DNA of 64,000 nt, taken from contig QZKU01000075.1 of assembly GCA_003598085.1 (NCBI GenBank), forward strand, positions 1 through 64,000, given 5' to 3'. Made by a program: the position numbers and the translations under genes. Under the pieces are notes generated by a model. The model did no database searches. It was not told the DNA's origin and saw nothing but the letters and a program-made list of their open reading frames with translations. Every line of letters starts with the position of its first letter. The stretch's first letter is position 1. This DNA comes from Candidatus Abyssobacteria bacterium SURF_5 (GTDB taxonomy: Bacteria > Abyssobacteria > SURF-5). Shown piece after piece: positions 44,827 to 55,112 of the stretch.

Positions 44827-46008
44827 CTAATCTTCCTTTCCGAAAATGGCCACGGTGCAGGTGAAAGAACCCGGCCTGCCGCCAAGGTTGTGCGTCAACC
44901 CCAGCCTGGGGTTCTTGCGCTGGCGCGCTCCCGCCTTCCCCTGGAGCTGTTTATATACCTCATAAATCATTCGGATCCCGCTCGCTCCGATCGGATGCCC
45001 GAAACATTTCAGGCCACCATCAATGTTAATGGCCAGCTCGCCGTCCTTATCAAAGGTTCCAGCCTCATGATATTCAGGGCCCTTCCCCCTCGGAGCAAAG
45101 CCAAGGTCCTCCGTGATGACCAACTCCGTGATGGTGAAGCAGTCGTGCACCATCGCCATGTCGATCTCTTCGAGCGGCACCTTGACGTCGGCCTCGCGAT
45201 ATGCCATTTGCGACGCCCGCACATTTTCCTCGAAATGAACGAAATCATAATCGTCCTGAAGCATCCCTTGCTGGCCGCCGACAGCCATCCCGATGCCTTT
45301 GACAAGCACGTAATCGTCCCTGAACTTTCTCGCCAGCTCCGGGGTGGTGAGAATAGCGGCCGCCGAGCCGTCACTCACTCCGCAGCAATCGAACAAGCCA
45401 AGCGGCCAGGCCACCATGGGCGCCTTCAATGCCTGTTCGAGTGAGATCTCTTTTTGGAAATGCGCCTTCGGGTTTAAAGCTCCGTTCTTGTGGTTCTTTA
45501 CCGCGATCCGCGCGAGCGTCTTCTTGAGCTCGTCCATTGGCACGTTGTAATGGTGCGCGTAGCGCGTCGCCGCAAGTGCGAACTGTACCGGGGGCGGTGT
45601 ATTGACATCGACCATGCTGCTGCCGGGAGCGCCGAAACCTCCGAGTCCCGTCCAGCCGGTATCCTTCAGCTTTTCCACACCGATCGCAAGCACGATGTCG
45701 TGTATGCCGGCAGCAACCGCATAGCAGGCGTTCCGGAACGCATCAGTCGCCGTGCAGCACGCATTTTCAACGCGGGTGATCGGCACATAATCCAGTTTCA
45801 AGGCTGCCGCGGCCGGCTGGCCGGTCATGCCGGATTGCACCGTCCCCAGCCATGCCGCTTCGATGTCCTTCGGATCTATTCCCGCATCTTCATAGGCCTC
45901 ATATGCCGCCTCGACCATGAGGTCACTGGCGTCGCTCTCCCAGCGTTCGCCGAACTTGGAGCAGCCCATTCCAATTATTGCGACCTTGTCTTTTATTGAT
46001 GCACTCAT
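44827..46008 (-). CDS. SCP2-type thiolase / acetyl-CoA acetyltransferase, copy 1
   Basis: A 393-residue thiolase of the lipid-transfer/SCP2-like group. It starts MSASIKDKVAIIGMGCSKFGERW. The nucleophilic Cys is in ENACCTATDA (Cys 84 or 85), where the usual pattern is NxCxSG. The catalytic His is in KCFGHPIGASG, and MVHDCFTITELV is the family segment. The ATG has a GAGGTGA RBS. It lies 9 nt after the HMG-synthase-like/DUF35 gene and is co-transcribed. A thiolysis or Claisen condensation of a 3-oxoacyl-CoA is expected; the natural substrate is unknown. The first-copy Cys context is less canonical than in the second copy. Confidence 0.88.
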   Translation of the reverse strand: MSASIKDKVAIIGMGCSKFGERWESDASDLMVEAAYEAYEDAGIDPKDIEAAWLGTVQSGMTGQPAAAALKLDYVPITRVENACCTATDAFRNACYAVAAGIHDIVLAIGVEKLKDTGWTGLGGFGAPGSSMVDVNTPPPVQFALAATRYAHHYNVPMDELKKTLARIAVKNHKNGALNPKAHFQKEISLEQALKAPMVAWPLGLFDCCGVSDGSAAAILTTPELARKFRDDYVLVKGIGMAVGGQQGMLQDDYDFVHFEENVRASQMAYREADVKVPLEEIDMAMVHDCFTITELVITEDLGFAPRGKGPEYHEAGTFDKDGELAINIDGGLKCFGHPIGASGIRMIYEVYKQLQGKAGARQRKNPRLGLTHNLGGRPGSFTCTVAIFGKED

Positions 46009-46017
46009 TTTCTCACC

Positions 46018-47445
46018 TCATTCCTTGATCCGGGCAGGAATGCATTTCCAGAAATAGTTGGGAACGCCCCCGACGGTAGCGACCCTGCGAAACGACATTT
46101 CAAGCGGCATATCCACTGCGATCTCTTCGATTTCGCGATCGGTCATCGTGCACAGCATCCGACCGCCGCCCTCGAAGTTGACGATACAAACAGCGAGCGG
46201 GATATCCATCGTGCCCGCGATATAATCCAGCGAGTACGTGAATAATTTCCCTTTCTTATCAGAGAAGCGCACCTTGTCGAAATCATCCTTCGTGCGGCAT
46301 CTCGTGCACACCCGCTGAGGCGGGTACTGCACCGTACCACAACTCCTGCATTTCACCCCATGCAGTCTCAGAATTCGATCACGCTCCCTCCATAGTGCGG
46401 AGGACGACGGCGGCGATGCCGCGGGACGACGTGATGCGGCCTCGGCCGAAAGGATTCCCCTCCATTGCGCGTATGAGGCATAATCAGGCACATTCTTCTT
46501 CGACTGCAGGGCTCGCCTGAATCCTCCCCTCTTCTTCATCGTATCGATTCGATCGGTAACCCGAAGAAGGAAAATATCAATCCCGTTTCCGTAACTGATC
46601 AGCAGAATCCTTTCTCCCGGCTCCGCCTCCTCGAGCGCGCCTGCCAGCATCAACAGCGGATGCGCACAACCGGTCAGCCCGACAGCCCCGAACAGGCCGT
46701 CCTGCAGTCTCGACGGCTCAATTTTCAGCAGCTTCGCGATCTGCAAATGCCACCGGTAGTCGGGCGCGTATGAAACGATTTTGGCAAAATCCGCAGGCGC
46801 GCATTTGTACTTTTTCATGCATTCGGAAACAGCCTGGCGAAAGGCGCTCACAAATCCTTGCTCGATAACAAATCGATCCTCCCAGGATTTCACATACTCA
46901 TCTTTGTCTGTTCTCCAGACATCGCTGATCTCGTGATACATCGTATAATAGCCCTGGATTTCGGCGACCACGTTCTCAGATCCCACCACCACGGCGGCTG
47001 CGGCGTCTCCGAAGAGCATCTCAAACTGCGAGCGCGGAGGCGGCATTCGCGTGTCGGCGGCAGCAACAAGAACACGGCCTGCGCTTCCCGACTGTACGGC
47101 ATCCGCAGCGGCGCGCAGCGCCTGCGTTCCGGCCCGCAACGAATCCGAGAAATCGCTCGTTCGTATATCGGTGCGAAGGTCTGCGGCGGCCGCCATCGTC
47201 ACCGAAGCCCCTCTCTCGAGGAAAGGAGCGGTCGTTGATGCGAAAAATGCACCGTCAATTGATTCGCGATCTACTCCATTCAGGCAATCAAGTGACGCGG
47301 CAACTGCCATGGTGAGGCTATCTTCATCGAAATTTGCAACCGCTTTCTCACCCGGCGCACCCGGGAATCCCCATTCCCGGGAGATAATCTCCCGCGCCAG
47401 CCGCCACGTTGGAATGTAAGTGCCGCATGCGACTATTCCAACCAT
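46018..47445 (-). CDS. HMG-CoA-synthase-like protein fused to DUF35 zinc-ribbon/OB domain, copy 1
   Basis: A 475-residue protein. Residues 1-320 follow the archaeal HMG-CoA synthase/KAS-III fold (GIVACGTYIPTWRL, LLISYGNGIDIFLL). Residues 360-475 are a DUF35 domain: zinc ribbon CRSC-x11-CTRC and an OB-fold (AVCIVNFEGGGRMLCTM). At the position of the catalytic Cys (family pattern ACKAGT) it has SLRAGT, with Leu 103. ATG 47445 has AAGGAG 9 nt upstream; TTG 47451 is less likely. Archaea encode thiolase, HMG synthase and DUF35 as three proteins that form a substrate-channelling complex; here the last two are fused beside the thiolase. Enzymatic activity is doubtful. Confidence 0.8.
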   Translation of the reverse strand: MVGIVACGTYIPTWRLAREIISREWGFPGAPGEKAVANFDEDSLTMAVAASLDCLNGVDRESIDGAFFASTTAPFLERGASVTMAAAADLRTDIRTSDFSDSLRAGTQALRAAADAVQSGSAGRVLVAAADTRMPPPRSQFEMLFGDAAAAVVVGSENVVAEIQGYYTMYHEISDVWRTDKDEYVKSWEDRFVIEQGFVSAFRQAVSECMKKYKCAPADFAKIVSYAPDYRWHLQIAKLLKIEPSRLQDGLFGAVGLTGCAHPLLMLAGALEEAEPGERILLISYGNGIDIFLLRVTDRIDTMKKRGGFRRALQSKKNVPDYASYAQWRGILSAEAASRRPAASPPSSSALWRERDRILRLHGVKCRSCGTVQYPPQRVCTRCRTKDDFDKVRFSDKKGKLFTYSLDYIAGTMDIPLAVCIVNFEGGGRMLCTMTDREIEEIAVDMPLEMSFRRVATVGGVPNYFWKCIPARIKE

Positions 47446-47637
47446 ATGCAATCACTCCTTTCAAATGTCCTTGAGATAAGGAGCACTCACCACAAGAACT
47501 GCATTCTTCCCGCGGGGCCAAATATATGCAATCGCCGGTCAAATGTCAACAACGGCGCAACGCCCTCCCCGCCTGCCAACACTGTTCTGAGCCAACATCC
47601 CCGAGCTTGAGGTGCGCGCCCGGCATACGAAAACTTC

Positions 47638-48410
47638 TCAGCGGGTGTCTGGGGGCTGTCCCTCATAGCGAATCGTCGCCAGGCACAGCGCCTGGTTTCG
47701 ATCCTCGATGTGCAAGGCCTGCTCGAGGCCCGCCGCATCCAGGTTGCAGTTGATTGCCTCCTTCGTCAGCCGCAGACCCAGCGGATTCTTGCGACACATT
47801 TTATCTGCCAGGTCGCGGGCTTCATCAAGGAGTGTCTCGCGCCGGACAATTCGGCTGACCATCCCCAGTTTGAGTGCGGTCTCAGCGTCCATGAAATCGC
47901 CGGCAGCATGAACTCATATGCCCGCCCTGCCCCGATCATTCGGGGCAGAAAATAGCTGGAGCCGCAATCCGCGCCGCCCAGCCCAATGTTAATGTAGGCA
48001 GCCCCGAACCGGACGTCGCGGGAAACGATCCGCACGCAGCATCCGAGTGCGAAACTCAATCCTCCGCCCACGGCGGCGCCGTGGATCGCGCCGATTATCG
48101 GTTGAGGCGCCTGCCGCATCTTTAGCAGCAATCGCGAGATGCGCGCCTGCAGTCGATATATGATTTTGAGGTCGGCGCTCAACAGCTGTCCGGCCGTCTC
48201 TTTCAAGTCAAGCCCGGAGCAGAATCCCCTGTCTCCCGCGCCACACATGATGATCACGCGTGTTGCGTCGTCATGCCGCCGCGCGTTCCAGAATTCTTCA
48301 AGCTCTATGATCATGGTTTCGTCGATGGCATTGACCCGGTCTGGCCGGTTGAGAGTCAATAATCCGACAAGGTCAGAGACTTCATAGCGGATCGACTTGT
48401 ATTGAGTCAT
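47638..48410 (-). pseudogene. Enoyl-CoA hydratase/isomerase family protein, frameshifted
   Basis: Starting at ATG 48410 the sequence reads as a crotonase: MTQYKSIRYEVSDLVGLLTLNRPDRVNAID, then CGAGDRGFCSGLDLKE and IGAIHGAAVGGGLSFALGCCVRI, the CoA-binding and oxyanion-hole segments. After the RAYEFML block (near 47911) the family continues in another frame, with FMDAETALKLGMVSRIV and the C-terminal helices to 47638. One missing base between about 47897 and 47911 explains it. Joined, the protein is about 257 residues, the normal size. It may be a real pseudogene or a sequence or assembly error; the rest of both halves is well conserved. Confidence 0.85.
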
Positions 48411-48610
48411 ACGGTTACCTCCAAAACAATTAGTGGGGCTTCAAAGACTCATGGCCTCTCAATACCGGATGGCGTGGGGAATCCATAATATCATAAATCG
48501 GGTGATTTGGATGCTGCGCGGACCGGGCGATGGAGGTTTAAGTCGATGCTGAAAGCAACTGCAATGCGCAAATCGGCCAATAAAGGTGGGGCAGCGCTGA
48601 AGGAGATCCT

Positions 48611-48937
48611 CTAATGAAATTCGACGTGCTGGACGACGTCGTTTTTTTTGATCTGTTCAGTCAATATGCGCTTTGTTTCTTCGCTACGGATGGATTCGAC
48701 TTCGGAGACTTCAAGATTATCCCTATTGCGGCGGGTCTTCCAGCCGAGAATATAGCCGGGGACAATTGCATAGCGACAGCCGGTGATTCCGCAGCATGAG
48801 GTATCCACCACTCCCATGCCGACCACATAAAGAACCTCACGTCCATTGAATGGAAGACGCACTTCCTTCTCGAGGACGTAATGCCCTCCGATAGAGCGAA
48901 CCTCTTCGTCCAGTGGAATGTGGGTATACTCTCGCAT
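48611..48937 (-). CDS. Small conserved-looking protein with a CCG motif, unknown function
   Basis: A 108-residue protein read from ATG 48937, with AGGGGAA 2-8 nt upstream; a GTG at 48970 would add 11 residues. It shows EVLYVVGMGVVDTSCCGITGCRYAIVPGYI, a cysteine-rich beta region, and a charged C-terminal helix (EESIRSEE-type, EQIKKND). No family can be named. It lies between the frameshifted enoyl-CoA hydratase and the second thiolase on the same strand, with gaps of about 120-200 nt, so it may belong to the operon. The three Cys could bind a metal. Confidence 0.6.
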   Translation of the reverse strand: MREYTHIPLDEEVRSIGGHYVLEKEVRLPFNGREVLYVVGMGVVDTSCCGITGCRYAIVPGYILGWKTRRNRDNLEVSEVESIRSEETKRILTEQIKKNDVVQHVEFH

Positions 48938-49054
48938 ATTCCCCTGTGGCTGAAAACTCTGGAATATCACTCCTGTTCCAGAATAAGGATCAATTTTGCA
49001 GAGAAGAAGTGAAAGCGGCGACTCTTGCTGCAGCCGCCGCCCTCAACCGAAAAA

Positions 49055-50266
49055 TTACACGCCGTATTTGCCGACAATTGCTATGCTGCACACGTTCATG
49101 AACGGGAAGCCGCCCAGATTGTGTGTCAGCCCGATCTTCGGGTCCTTGAGCTGGCGCTTATCGGCTCTGCCATGAAGCTGCAGATACATTTCATACACCA
49201 TTCGCAAGCCTGATGCCCCGATCGGATGACCGAAGCACTTCAGCCCGCCGTCAACCTGGCAGGGAACTCCACCGCCGTCGAGATTATAGAAGCCATCCAT
49301 CACGTCCTTCAGCGCGCCTCCCTTGGGCGAAATATGGAGGTCTTCCATCGTGACAAACTCGGTGATGGAGAAGCAATCATGCACTTCCATCATCGAGATT
49401 TCCTTGCGCGGATCCTTGATTCCGGCTTCCTCATACGCCTTCCGGCTTGCCTTTTCGGTTGTAACGAAGTGGTCGCCGTCCCATTCGTTGAAACCGAGTT
49501 CCTCGCCGCTGCTCAAAGCGAGTTGAAGCGCCTTCACGGTGATAAAATCCTTCTTGCCGAGATCCTTCGCGATCTTTGGAGTCGTCACGATGGCGCAGGC
49601 CGAGCCATCGCTTACACCGCAGCAATCGAACAGGCCGAGCGGATGCGCGATAATGGGCGCTCCCAGGATCTGCTCGACCGTCACCGGTTTTCGCAGATGC
49701 GCTTTGGGGTTAAGAGCGCCATTCGCATGACTCTTTGCAGACACGTGCGCGAGAGCAAGCTTCAGCTCATCGTCCGGAATCTTGTATTTCGCGGCGTACG
49801 CGCTCGCAAGCTGCGCGAATGAGCCGGGTGCGGTAATCTGAGGAAACCAGAGCCACGTCAAACTTCCTGAACTCGAGCCGCCGCCGGGCAACCCGCCGTA
49901 GCCGGTATCCTTCAGCTTTTCGACTCCCATGGCCAGACAGATGTCATACGCGCCGGATGCAACCGCATAAACGGCTCCCCTCAGTGATTCCGTCCCGCTC
50001 GCACAGAAGTTTTCAACGCGGGTGCATGGGATCTTATCCAGCCGCAGCGCCATCGAAAGCGGCAGGGCGCTTTTGCCGACATTCACTTCGTCCATACACG
50101 TGCCAAGCCACGCGGCCTGGATGTCCTTCTTCTCGATTCCCGCGTCCTCCACGCACTCGGTGAACGCTTCGACCATCAGCTCTTCCGCGCCTACGTCCCA
50201 CCGTTCGCCGAACCTCGTGCAGCCCATGCCGATTATTGCGACCTTATCTTTTATTCCGGTTGCCAT
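49055..50266 (-). CDS. SCP2-type thiolase / acetyl-CoA acetyltransferase, copy 2
   Basis: A 403-residue paralogue of the thiolase at 44827, sharing the start GIKDKVAIIGMGCTRFGERW and most motifs. The nucleophile is in ENFCASGTES (Cys 88, canonical); the catalytic His is in KCFGHPIGASG; the C-terminal NLGGFPFMNVCSIAIVG contains the second catalytic Cys. The RBS AGGAGG precedes ATG by 7 nt. It follows the second HMG-synthase-like/DUF35 gene by 13 nt. Expected to cleave or form a 3-oxoacyl-CoA. The two thiolase copies differ in size and active-site context, suggesting different substrates. Confidence 0.9.
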   Translation of the reverse strand: MATGIKDKVAIIGMGCTRFGERWDVGAEELMVEAFTECVEDAGIEKKDIQAAWLGTCMDEVNVGKSALPLSMALRLDKIPCTRVENFCASGTESLRGAVYAVASGAYDICLAMGVEKLKDTGYGGLPGGGSSSGSLTWLWFPQITAPGSFAQLASAYAAKYKIPDDELKLALAHVSAKSHANGALNPKAHLRKPVTVEQILGAPIIAHPLGLFDCCGVSDGSACAIVTTPKIAKDLGKKDFITVKALQLALSSGEELGFNEWDGDHFVTTEKASRKAYEEAGIKDPRKEISMMEVHDCFSITEFVTMEDLHISPKGGALKDVMDGFYNLDGGGVPCQVDGGLKCFGHPIGASGLRMVYEMYLQLHGRADKRQLKDPKIGLTHNLGGFPFMNVCSIAIVGKYGV

Positions 50267-50279
50267 TGCAGTTTCCTCC

Positions 50280-51734
50280 TTATGCTTCCGCTTGCGGAAG
50301 AGCCTTCCAGAAGTAGCCGTGGAAGCCGCGTTCCTTGTCGTGATACCGTTTGCGGAAAGCCATTTTGACCGTTTTTCCGACCTTCAGGTCGCCAAGTTCG
50401 CAATCGCTGAAGTCGGCAAGAATTCTTCCGCCTCCTTCGAACTGGACCATTCCGTAGCAATTCGGCGGCTCGACGGAAACAGATAACATGTCGCCGGTGA
50501 ACGTCTTGATGTGAGCCGGCGTGTCCGCAAATTCGACCGACTCTTGAGATTTGACCGAACCGCAGTCGGGATTGACGCAGATATCGTTGCTCGGGATCTG
50601 GCGCGTGCCGCATTTGCGGCATTCGCCGCCGACAAAACCAAGGAGGAACTTGCGTTTTCTGTAGAGAACGGTGAGAGCCGTCTGAGTGGGCGCTTCCGCC
50701 CGAATCCCCATTTCCGTCTGCATCAGGTCGCGGAACCGGAGGAACTTCTGGTAAACATCCACTTCTTTCCGGTTCGCGAGAGAACCCTTTATGCCCTGGC
50801 GCGGTGGCAGAGACTTGATTTTATCCGTCACCTGGAACAGCAGCGCATCCGACCCCTGCCCGAAGCTCGCCACGAGAATCTTGTCGCCCGGCTGGGCCTC
50901 CTCGAGCGCGGAGATGAACATCACGAGCGCGTGGGCCGCTCCGGTCTCGCCGCATACTTCGTGCATATTATCCACCAACTGCTCGCGCTTGAACCCCATG
51001 CCCTTGGCGATACCCTGGTGCTCCCGTTTAAAGAAGCACGGGAATACCAGCTTCGAGATATCCGCCGGAGACATGTTGCACTTCTTAAGCAGCCCGGTGA
51101 CTACTTCGGGAATGATCTTTGAATAGCCCTCATCACGAACCCACCGCTCTTCCCAGTTGTAATCGTATTTATTCATCGACCCGCGATAATGATCAACAAA
51201 ATCGTAAGATACCGAATAGCTCCCGAGGCATTCGGCAATGACATTCTCCGTCCCCAGCAGAAGAGAGGCCGCACCATCACCGTACCACATCTCATGAAAA
51301 TAGGCCGACTTGGTTATGCGCATATCGGCAGCCGTTAGGAGAACCGATTTCTTTTCGCCGCCTTTTAATGCCTCAAGGGCAGTCACCATCGCCGTCGTCG
51401 CTGTCTTTTGGGAAGCGGTGAAGTCGGCGGTCAGAACATTGTCCTTGAGATTCAAGGCCGTTGCTACAATTCCCGAATTCTGCCGATCAGCAAAGGGGGC
51501 CGTGGTGGAGGCCATGTACAGCGCATCAACTTTGCTCTTATCCATCCCCACCAGGCAATCACGGGCGGCGGCGACCGACATAGTCAATGAGTCTTCATCC
51601 CAATTGCACATCGAACGCTCGCCCTGGGCCACCATCATGATGGCGGGGGCGAACCATCCCATGGCCTGAAAGACTGCCATCCGCTGCAGTCTCAAACGAG
51701 GGATGTATCCTCCGTATGCAGTGATACCGATCAT
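50280..51734 (-). CDS. HMG-CoA-synthase-like protein fused to DUF35 zinc-ribbon/OB domain, copy 2
   Basis: A 484-residue paralogue of the protein at 46018. Start ATG 51734 has a GGAGGAGAGC RBS 4 nt upstream; a longer frame to 51845 lacks similarity. The synthase-like part (ITAYGGYIPRLRLQ, STTAPF, ADFTASQKTATTAM) has Gln 109 where catalytic Cys is expected. The DUF35 part carries zinc ligands CRKC and CVNPDC and an OB-fold (GMVQFEGGGRILADF). Its neighbour is a thiolase 13 nt downstream. Both copies lack the Cys, so it is a property of this subgroup rather than a chance mutation. Confidence 0.82.
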   Translation of the reverse strand: MIGITAYGGYIPRLRLQRMAVFQAMGWFAPAIMMVAQGERSMCNWDEDSLTMSVAAARDCLVGMDKSKVDALYMASTTAPFADRQNSGIVATALNLKDNVLTADFTASQKTATTAMVTALEALKGGEKKSVLLTAADMRITKSAYFHEMWYGDGAASLLLGTENVIAECLGSYSVSYDFVDHYRGSMNKYDYNWEERWVRDEGYSKIIPEVVTGLLKKCNMSPADISKLVFPCFFKREHQGIAKGMGFKREQLVDNMHEVCGETGAAHALVMFISALEEAQPGDKILVASFGQGSDALLFQVTDKIKSLPPRQGIKGSLANRKEVDVYQKFLRFRDLMQTEMGIRAEAPTQTALTVLYRKRKFLLGFVGGECRKCGTRQIPSNDICVNPDCGSVKSQESVEFADTPAHIKTFTGDMLSVSVEPPNCYGMVQFEGGGRILADFSDCELGDLKVGKTVKMAFRKRYHDKERGFHGYFWKALPQAEA

Positions 51735-52083: not shown

Positions 52084-53403
52084 TTAACGCGGGATTTTGT
52101 AGCGGAGACCGTGGAGGCGGCCCGTCAGAAACTGCCGGTAAATCTCGAGTCGGCTCAGAGGCGACAGATCCAGCACGCTCACGTTCAAATTTTCTGCAAG
52201 AAGCGCAATGATATTGTCACAGCGGCCGCATGTATTGAGCGGCTCCACATGGATGTACTGTTTTCTGACCCGCTCGAGCGCTTCCTTGCAGGCGCATTTT
52301 CCCAACACTATGATCGGCTCGCGCAGTCCATTGAACTGGTCGTCTTCAAGGTTTCGGCCGGTGACAATCGTCAGGGGCAGGCCGTCAAAATCGTGTGGAG
52401 TCTGCCGCTCATTCACAAGCAATTCGGCCACCTGCTCGAGATGGCCCAGGCATCCTTCGTAACAGGCGCCGCCTTTGCCGACCACAATCTTCATGCTGTC
52501 CGGCAGATGCGGGTTATATTCCCAGGGAATCCTTTCTTTGCAGGTGGGCAATTGTCCCTCGATCCGGATGTTCTGCAAATTTCCCTCGCCAAACCCTTGC
52601 GCGGCGGCCAGCGATAGGTGTTTAACCTCGACGGGATCATACCCCAGAATTTTTGCGCAGACGGCATCGACCGCGACGACATCTTCCCCCGCCACAATTA
52701 CATCTTTCTCGTTGAGAAGGTCGGGCAGATACTTTACTGCCGGAATAGGCCCTCTGGCGACCACTTTGAGGGCATCAACAAGAGTGAAATCAGGTCTGAT
52801 AAACGCGAGCAGGTCGACAAGCTTCTGATGCAGCCGATGGTTATGGTGTCGGGCCTTATCCTTATCATACAGCAGGCCCATCTGGTTCTTTATCCCTGCT
52901 GTCATCTGGGTCTGGCAGTGAGCCTTCAACACGGGCATGTTGAGGTAAAGATTCTTGTCGCGGCCAACGATCAGGTTCTCATAAAGAATCTGGGGGAATC
53001 GGGCTTCCGATTCGTTCTTGCCATCCCGCATCATCACCTTGACCGATTTTTCCTCATCCAGATACAGGCAATAAACGCGAAGCTTCTTGGCTAGAGCGTC
53101 CAGCCCGATTGTGGAGAAACAGAGCCGGCTGAAGTTTCCCTGCGAGCAGTTCTCCATCAAGTAAATGCGCTTCTTTGAATCGACCCTCTTTATATATTCG
53201 ACGGCCGCCTCAATGAGATCCAGTGATGTGTGAAGATGCGGATGGAAGTATACCGCATTTACTTTAATGAAGACTTTTTCGCATGACCGCAACAATCCTT
53301 CGATTCGGGGGAATCGCCCAAAGGAATTGGCCACGGCCGCGGCGGGCGCACCGGCTACTCTTTCAACCGTTACAACAACATTTCCCAACGGCTTATTCTC
53401 CAT
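52084..53403 (-). CDS. DUF362 domain protein
   Basis: A 439-residue protein. The central segment NLYLNMPVLKAHCQTQMTAGIKNQMGLL...HHNHRLHQKLVDLLAFIRPDFTLVDAL is the DUF362 signature. The C-terminal part carries four or more cysteines (GKCACKEAL and NTCGRCDN) that might bind an Fe-S cluster. Members of this family occur near anaerobic redox and CoA enzymes, but no biochemical function is established. A sigma-70 promoter is seen at 53470-53498. It is the first gene upstream of the thiolase/DUF35 operons on this strand, yet it has its own promoter and is separated by 349 nt. Confidence 0.85.
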   Translation of the reverse strand: MENKPLGNVVVTVERVAGAPAAAVANSFGRFPRIEGLLRSCEKVFIKVNAVYFHPHLHTSLDLIEAAVEYIKRVDSKKRIYLMENCSQGNFSRLCFSTIGLDALAKKLRVYCLYLDEEKSVKVMMRDGKNESEARFPQILYENLIVGRDKNLYLNMPVLKAHCQTQMTAGIKNQMGLLYDKDKARHHNHRLHQKLVDLLAFIRPDFTLVDALKVVARGPIPAVKYLPDLLNEKDVIVAGEDVVAVDAVCAKILGYDPVEVKHLSLAAAQGFGEGNLQNIRIEGQLPTCKERIPWEYNPHLPDSMKIVVGKGGACYEGCLGHLEQVAELLVNERQTPHDFDGLPLTIVTGRNLEDDQFNGLREPIIVLGKCACKEALERVRKQYIHVEPLNTCGRCDNIIALLAENLNVSVLDLSPLSRLEIYRQFLTGRLHGLRYKIPR

Positions 53404-53588: not shown

Positions 53589-55112
53589 ATGAATTTAGCG
53601 GAATTAGCCGAGAACAAGATTCAGGAATTCGGCGAATACGTAAACCTGATTTTTGACGATCGCGAATATACGAATGTTCAGTTGCACGAACAATCAAGAC
53701 GGCTTTCGGCCGGGCTGAGACGCCTGGGCATCAAGCCCGGCGACATGGTGATGGTGCTCATGCCAAACTGCCCGGAGGTGCTCGTATCCTATCCTGCAAT
53801 CTGGCGCGCCGGCGGCATCATCGTTCCCGTGCTATTCCTGCTGGAATCACAAGAGATCGAATATATTGCCCGGGATTGTCAAGCGGTCGCCGTTATCACC
53901 TCTCCGGAATTCCTCTATAAGTTCCAAAATGCTCGGCTCAACGTATCCCCGCTGCGCCATGTGATCTTGACCGGCACTGAAAAGCATCCGGACTCCGTTT
54001 CTTTCAACGATCTCCTTTTGGAAGGAGGAGATGACAGTATTCATCCCGCCGATGATGAAGATCTTGCCGTCTTGCTTTATACTTCGGGAACGACCGGCAC
54101 TCCGAAGGGAGTCATGCTCACGCATAAGAACCTTTACGCGAATGCCCTCAACATAAAGAACACGGCCGGCGACAGCGACCGCGGAGATGTCTCCCTGGCA
54201 GTCCTTCCCCTCTCTCATTCATACGGGCTGGGACTTCTGGTAAGCGGCTATGTCAGCGATCGGACCGGGAAAACCGTGCTTCTGCGATGGTTTAATCTTG
54301 AAGAGGTTTTCCGGTGCATCGACAAATACAAAATAGCAAATATGGCCGGCGTTCCCACGATGTACATTTACATGCTTCATTATCCGGATGCGGATAAGTA
54401 CGAGCTATCCTCAATGAAAAATTGGCTTGTCGGCGCCGCGCCAATGTCACAGGCGACTCTCAAACAGTTCGAAGAGAAGTTCGGCGGCGAGATGTATGTC
54501 GCTTACGGTCTCTCGGAAGCGTCGCCCGGAGTCGCTTCGGAGCGCGATACGTTCCCCCGCAAGCCCGGCTCGGTCGGTAAACCTATGGTGGGCGTCGACG
54601 TTAAAATTGTCGACGAAAATGATAAAGAAGTCCCTGCGCACACTGTCGGCGAGATCCTGTGTCGCGGCGGCAATATTATGAAAGGCTACTACAAAATGCC
54701 GGAGCAAACGGAGGAGGCTCTGCGCGGCGGCTGGTTGCACACCGGCGACATGGGCATGTTCGACGAGGATGGTTATCTTTATATTGTCGAGCGAAAAAAG
54801 GATCTGATCATACGCGGCGGCTTCAATATCTATCCGAAGGACGTCGAGGAAGTGTTATACAAACATCCTGCCGTGGCGGAGGCGGCCGTTGTCGGCAAGA
54901 GCGACGCGTATATGGGAGAGGAGGTACTTGCCTACGTAGTGAAGGCGCCCGGAGCCGAGGCCACCGCTGCCGACCTTATCGTTCATTGCCAGGCAAACCT
55001 GGCGAAGTACAAATGCCCCAGACGAATTGAGTTTCTCGATTCGATGCCGAAGAACCCCATTGGAAAGATACAAAAAAAGGAACTGCGAAAACTGGCGCAA
55101 ACCCTGCAATAG
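53589..55112 (+). CDS. Acyl-CoA ligase (AMP-binding, fatty-acid-CoA ligase type)
   Basis: A 507-residue adenylate-forming enzyme that activates a carboxylic acid to its CoA thioester using ATP. The P-loop LLYTSGTTGTPKGVMLTHKN is near 165-185; YGLSEASPGV, GWLHTGDMGMFDEDGYLYIVERKKDLIIRGGFNIYP and the catalytic lysine GKIQKKELRK are all present. The GGGGGAGG RBS is strong. Length and motifs fit medium/long-chain acyl or aromatic acid ligases. Next to CoA-thioester genes, it could feed the thiolase/DUF35 pathway. Confidence 0.93.
   Translation: MNLAELAENKIQEFGEYVNLIFDDREYTNVQLHEQSRRLSAGLRRLGIKPGDMVMVLMPNCPEVLVSYPAIWRAGGIIVPVLFLLESQEIEYIARDCQAVAVITSPEFLYKFQNARLNVSPLRHVILTGTEKHPDSVSFNDLLLEGGDDSIHPADDEDLAVLLYTSGTTGTPKGVMLTHKNLYANALNIKNTAGDSDRGDVSLAVLPLSHSYGLGLLVSGYVSDRTGKTVLLRWFNLEEVFRCIDKYKIANMAGVPTMYIYMLHYPDADKYELSSMKNWLVGAAPMSQATLKQFEEKFGGEMYVAYGLSEASPGVASERDTFPRKPGSVGKPMVGVDVKIVDENDKEVPAHTVGEILCRGGNIMKGYYKMPEQTEEALRGGWLHTGDMGMFDEDGYLYIVERKKDLIIRGGFNIYPKDVEEVLYKHPAVAEAAVVGKSDAYMGEEVLAYVVKAPGAEATAADLIVHCQANLAKYKCPRRIEFLDSMPKNPIGKIQKKELRKLAQTLQ

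Follow-up and report, generated by a model that had tools for sequence, protein, structure and literature searches.

Organization of the Locus

The window analysed here is a 64,000-nt stretch of contig QZKU01000075.1 from Candidatus Abyssobacteria bacterium SURF_5. As the initial annotation had proposed, it carries two fusions of an HMG-CoA synthase (HMGCS)-like domain with a DUF35 domain, each followed by a thiolase gene (Table 1). Both gene pairs lie on the minus strand, fusion 2 and thiolase 2 at 51734-49055 and fusion 1 and thiolase 1 at 47451-44827. The order of transcription on this strand is DUF362, fusion 2, thiolase 2, a small protein, a frameshifted crotonase, fusion 1, and thiolase 1. 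The distance from the end of a fusion gene to the start of its thiolase gene is 9 or 13 nt. Fusion 1 starts at TTG 47451 or ATG 47445, and fusion 2 probably begins at ATG 51734, as in the initial annotation, rather than at GTG 51845.

Table 1. Genes of the two fusion-thiolase modules and their surroundings, in window coordinates.
Feature	Position	Strand	Basis
Thiolase 1 (SCP2/PRK06157 type)	44827..46008	-	Pfam Thiolase_N/Thiolase_C_1; NCBIfam NF004810, 575 bits (cut-off 403)
Fusion 1, HMGCS-like + zinc ribbon/OB (DUF35)	46018..47451	-	Pfam/NCBIfam domains, alignment, AlphaFold model
Crotonase (enoyl-CoA hydratase family), one-base frameshift	47638..48410	-	Two ORFs, 48410-47766 and 47892-47638
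Small conserved protein, ~110 aa, motif DTSCCG-x2-GC	48611..48943	-	Recurrence among sampled genomes
Thiolase 2 (SCP2/PRK06157 type)	49055..50266	-	NCBIfam NF004810, 686 bits (cut-off 403)
Fusion 2, HMGCS-like + DUF35	50280..51734	-	Pfam/NCBIfam domains, alignment
DUF362 protein, upstream of fusion 2	52084..53403	-	Pfam PF04015
Acyl-CoA ligase (AMP-binding), divergent from operon	53589..55112	+	Profile matches

A crotonase and an acyl-CoA ligase had been assigned to both modules. The window contains one crotonase between the modules, broken by a single-base frameshift near 47890 (a sequencing error or decay), and a single AMP-ligase on the opposite strand beyond the DUF362 gene; neither is present once per module. 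In the sister genome G002, no crotonase ORF was found between the two modules. In the sister genome G001, linkage of a ligase to the module was not seen, and the closest genes in divergent orientation resemble those for succinyl-CoA ligase subunits. These neighbourhoods and the single frameshifted copy rule out the crotonase as a conserved partner of both modules. A DUF362-like gene also lies upstream of fusion 2 in both sister genomes.

The small protein had no match in Pfam or NCBIfam, and a weak model built from two sequences (pLDDT 74) gave no PDB match better than E 0.5. It was detected in 12 of 386 genomes, 11 of which also encode a fusion (Fisher p = 4e-13, with kinship ignored). It lies between the modules in the window and near fusion-thiolase pairs elsewhere, and in several genomes it is on another contig. 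Modules of the fusion-2 type may include it as an additional component.

Domain Architecture and Fold of the Fusion Proteins

Pfam and NCBIfam searches of both fusions showed an archaeal-type HMGCS domain followed by zinc-ribbon/OB domains (ChsH2, formerly DUF35). In fusion 1, the HMGCS-like domain covers residues ~3-334 and the zinc ribbon/OB part residues ~354-473. The Pfam model zf-ChsH2 scored above cut-off in fusion 1, and OB_ChsH2_C was found in both proteins. A Cys4 zinc site is predicted at C368, C371, C382, and C385 of fusion 1 and at C372, C375, C386, and C391 of fusion 2, and the four cysteines are invariant in an alignment of 22 fusions. The single-chain AlphaFold model of fusion 1 (pLDDT 92.3, pTM 0.93) has the archaeal HMGCS fold: its top PDB match was HMGCS chain I of 6ESQ (TM 0.92 on the target, 1.5 A, 28% identity), followed by PhlA of PhlABC and then by the HMGCS-like subunit of MucABC. 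The fusions scored below the cut-offs of the curated HMGCS models, with 167 and 128 bits against 353 for TIGR00748, and 220 and 201 bits against 244 for PRK04262.

Loss of the Catalytic Triad

Alignment with the HMGCS of 6ESQ showed that Glu, Cys, and His of the catalytic triad are replaced by Thr73, Leu105, and Tyr228 in fusion 1 and by Thr77, Gln109, and Pro232 in fusion 2. The nucleophile position had already been read as non-cysteine (SLRAGT in fusion 1, SQKTAT in fusion 2), which the alignment confirmed; the loss is wider than was then noticed, since Glu and His are gone in both proteins too. None of 109 fused homologues, taken from genome search hits and named GTDB contigs, keeps Glu, Cys, or His. 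Glu is replaced by Thr in 103, Cys by Leu in 85, Ile in 9, Val in 5, and Gln in 4, and His by Tyr in 56 and Pro in 30. In total, the old Cys position holds L/I/V/Q/T/M/R/A and the old His position Y/P/S/A/F/D. All three residues were retained in 22 of 22 free-standing HMGCS from other genomes, which served as a positive control. The triad loss is a trait of the whole family and not a local mutation.

Approximately 50 further near-invariant HMGCS positions are altered in the fused family, mostly to variable residues. The fold-core positions D100, E144, G258, G290, and D292 are common to HMGCS and the fused family and keep the whole-family alignment in register, which rules out a catalytic Cys or His at a shifted position. 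With the entire triad lost across the family, condensation by the synthase-like domain is unlikely, as had been suspected. Three residues that differ in HMGCS are fixed in the 109 fused homologues, namely R135 (100%), D149 (99%), and G261 (100%). This fixation indicates that the HMGCS-like domain is selected for something beyond its bulk fold.

Thiolases

The catalytic residues of the thiolases are Cys84, His288/Cys290 (HDCF), and His338 in thiolase 1, and Cys88, His296/Cys298, and His347 in thiolase 2. Cys85, HDCF, and GH (6ESQ numbering) were intact in all 63 thiolases examined, both window proteins included. Both proteins exceed the cut-off of the PRK06157 (NF004810) thiolases; this model spans the thiolase alone, without the fused HMGCS-DUF35 partner. 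The nearest solved structures were 6ESQ and 7YVY, ahead of BbsB. Thiolase 1 scored 206.9 bits against the 6ESQ thiolase, 156.3 against BbsB, and 82.1 against PhlC.

Distribution and Phylogeny of the Fused Family

The full-length fused protein was found in 28 genomes of a broad sample of 386. All three genomes of the window's own family carry it; G002 has both modules and G001 has module 2 only. A scan of named genomes gave at least 471 candidate stretches that encode a confirmed relative. The best 80 of these belong to Dehalococcoidia and other Chloroflexota, Desulfobacterota and other "Deltaproteobacteria", Desulfotomaculum-like Bacillota, a Nitrospinae, and a Blastocatellia. Hundreds of uncharacterised bacterial genomes, most of them environmental, show the same fusion-thiolase pairing, and relatives hold several copies per genome. 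In a translated search, a same-strand thiolase was next downstream in 79 of 80 fusion genes with downstream DNA. The fused thiolase-partner family is well supported as real and widespread. Its members are common, and they are not well described: literature searches found no publication on the fused HMGCS-DUF35 family, which apparently has not been described as a family. Tandem fusion-thiolase pairs, together with additional thiolase and OB-like pieces that stand alone, occur on three Chloroflexota contigs (L110, L103, and L074).

The operon mates in relatives, counted as a plain tally without matched background, included acyl-CoA dehydrogenase (15 of 94), crotonase (12), SDR (7), MaoC (7), and CoA-transferase III (4). 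The clusters of Desulfotruncus arcticus DSM 17038 and Desulfotomaculum copahuensis that contain the pair also encode a ligase, a hydratase of two subunits, an SDR, and an acyl-CoA dehydrogenase. They cover every step of a beta-oxidation round.

A maximum-likelihood tree was calculated without the three triad columns. It divided HMGCS, PhlA, and the fused family into three groups with 99-100% support, and the fused clade and PhlA were on separate branches (100/100 each), so the fusions do not belong to the PhlA clade. The tree also placed within the fused group a long, odd row, L017 (L022:8647-10002). This divergent HMGCS-like relative of 451 aa keeps the Glu, has Cys replaced by Glu and His by Gly, adjoins thiolase-like genes, and sits on a long branch. 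The modules had been called duplicated. They are paralogous, but the duplication is ancient: fusions 1 and 2 are 36-37% identical and thiolases 1 and 2 are 52% identical. The tree rules out a recent tandem duplication, because the two fusions belong to separate subclades, both of which have relatives in other phyla.

Comparison with Known Systems

The archaeal thiolase/HMGCS/DUF35 complex (6ESQ) has the same three domain types and the same thiolase active-site residues as the window modules. Its HMGCS and DUF35 are separate proteins and its triad is intact, whereas in the window the two are fused and the triad is lost. According to PMC12329534, which cites the PNAS paper on this complex, DUF35 links the thiolase and HMGCS about a single CoA site. 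PhlABC (PDB 5M3K, 9SKH), like the window modules, combines an HMGCS-like subunit lacking the catalytic Cys, Glu, and His with DUF35 and a catalytic thiolase subunit. Judged by its residues, each window module has this composition of a dead HMGCS-like part, an intact thiolase, and DUF35. In PhlA, Gly115 and Cys83 have replaced the catalytic Cys and Glu. Within the Phl(A2C2)2B4 complex, PhlC alone contacts the substrate and takes part in acyl transfer, and PhlA and PhlB are considered necessary for the complex to fold properly (PMC6392133). Unlike the window modules, PhlABC is encoded by three separate genes and serves antibiotic biosynthesis, and its thiolase is only distantly related to those of the window. 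The HMGCS-like subunit of MucABC (PDB 9VBO/9VBT, Streptococcus macacae) matches fusion 1 with TM 0.84-0.87 and 21-22% identity, but its chains are separate and it is annotated as an acyltransferase complex, not as a degradative thiolase.

Other systems share fewer parts. The benzoylsuccinyl-CoA thiolase BbsAB (PDB 7PXP) resembles the modules in its thiolase, its zinc-ribbon/OB subunit, and its CoA-dependent cleavage. In the ChsH2-Ltp2 and Shy-Sal aldolases (PDB 6OK1, 9MYR), a DUF35 domain likewise binds a thiolase-fold subunit and is joined to a second enzyme domain, but this is a hydratase and not an HMGCS-like domain as in the window. Sal and Ltp2 are reported to have different catalytic residues and retroaldol chemistry (PMC12329534), whereas the window thiolases keep the thiolase Cys. 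As a kind, the window modules are not new; they are a variant of the thiolase/HMGCS/DUF35 and PhlABC complexes already known.

Proposed Function

We believe that each module is probably a multi-subunit thiolase of acyl-CoA degradation, in which the fusion is a scaffold and a wall of the CoA site and not an HMG-CoA synthase. The observations behind this proposal are the gene pairing, the fold, the family-wide triad loss, the intact thiolase residues, and the beta-oxidation neighbours in relatives. The separate thiolase subunit would carry the whole chemistry, with Cys84 or Cys88 acylated and with HDCF and the GHP histidine as acid/base groups, and it would cleave a 3-oxoacyl-CoA in a CoA-dependent reaction that is in principle reversible. 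The fused partner would be a pseudo-enzyme whose HMGCS-fold domain is no longer catalytic. Its two parts would stand in for the separate HMGCS and DUF35 subunits found in the archaeal acetoacetyl-CoA thiolase/HMGCS complex, hold thiolase dimers in a larger assembly, and wall the CoA/acyl site, which are the roles of PhlA and PhlB in PhlABC. We infer the physical assembly of fusion and thiolase from gene adjacency and the single-chain model, and the reaction direction and the scaffold role are likewise inferred. A scaffold beside the thiolase was among the options first raised, and it is the best reading, with PhlA in PhlABC (PMC6392133) as a direct structural precedent. The presence of two divergent modules suggests two substrate classes. 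As a counterpoint, the window neighbourhood itself makes a poor beta-oxidation cluster, since it offers one frameshifted crotonase and a ligase in divergent orientation.

The modules could instead be biosynthetic C- (or N-) acyltransferases like PhlABC and MucABC, which move an acyl group between small molecules without cleaving a 3-oxoacyl-CoA. The three-domain composition is the same, PhlA and the MucABC subunit rank directly behind 6ESQ in structural similarity, PhlA has the triad loss as well as R135 and G261 in common with the fused family, and the tree is compatible with one loss in a common PhlA/fused ancestor. Against this stand the beta-oxidation enzymes among the operon mates of relatives and the thiolase scores, which are closer to the 6ESQ thiolase and BbsB than to PhlC, and we consider such a role rather unlikely. 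A point against the degradative thiolase that we favour is that its closest precedent in mechanism, PhlABC, is an acyltransferase and needs no added CoA, so that acyl transfer may take the place of thiolysis.

The initial annotation also allowed for a new enzyme. The active site of the HMGCS-like domain would then have been rebuilt, perhaps around R135/D149, and the domain would act before or after the thiolase. The three fixed residues speak for it; however, there is no conserved nucleophile at the old active-site positions, and the occurrence of R135 and G261 in the non-catalytic PhlA suggests a structural role. The option is disfavoured because the former active-site positions vary widely in the fused family, and we regard it as quite improbable. 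It is highly improbable that the rebuilt site (R135, D149, G261) carries out an undescribed CoA-thioester step and passes its product to the thiolase through a CoA site that both use, and that the small CC-motif protein is an extra subunit of the fusion-2 type.

A special link to the BbsAB-type thiolases of anaerobic aromatic degradation was not supported. BbsB and the zinc-ribbon/OB subunit BbsA are homologous to the window proteins, and CoA-transferase III genes are neighbours in some relatives. The scores, however, are far under the curated cut-offs (BbsB 167 and 147 bits against 750, BbsA 31.7 against 250), BbsAB has no HMGCS-like part, and no dearomatising oxo-acyl-CoA hydrolase (TIGR03200), a marker of the benzoyl-CoA pathway, scored above cut-off in the window's genome. 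A BbsAB or benzoyl-CoA pathway role is therefore unsupported, and its probability is remote. The same genome encodes two stand-alone zinc-ribbon/OB-like proteins, G000:C123 (L023:9712-11333) and G000:C41 (L024:12721-13856). As the gene for one of them adjoins a thiolase-like gene, this genome may have a BbsAB-like pair at another site. A true HMG-CoA synthase/thiolase complex that makes mevalonate by means of an unusual catalytic residue, although it would match 6ESQ in architecture and best fold, has a negligible chance of being correct: the triad is lost throughout the family, relatives have several copies per genome, and, since the MEP-route GcpE is present and no genuine HMGCS was found in the window's genome, the modules are not for isoprenoids.

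Significance of the Fused Family

The fold and family of these fusions make them easily labelled as HMG-CoA synthases, and the triad loss means that this label is wrong across the family. This is of consequence when pathways are reconstructed from Chloroflexota and Desulfobacterota genomes. The "dead" HMGCS in a thiolase complex is extended from one well-studied case, PhlA in antibiotic synthesis, to a widespread family in acyl-CoA degradation clusters. This raises the question of why a thiolase retains a catalytically dead synthase partner. Since two carriers, Desulfotruncus arcticus DSM 17038 and Desulfotomaculum copahuensis, have been cultured, the fusion-thiolase pair is directly testable.
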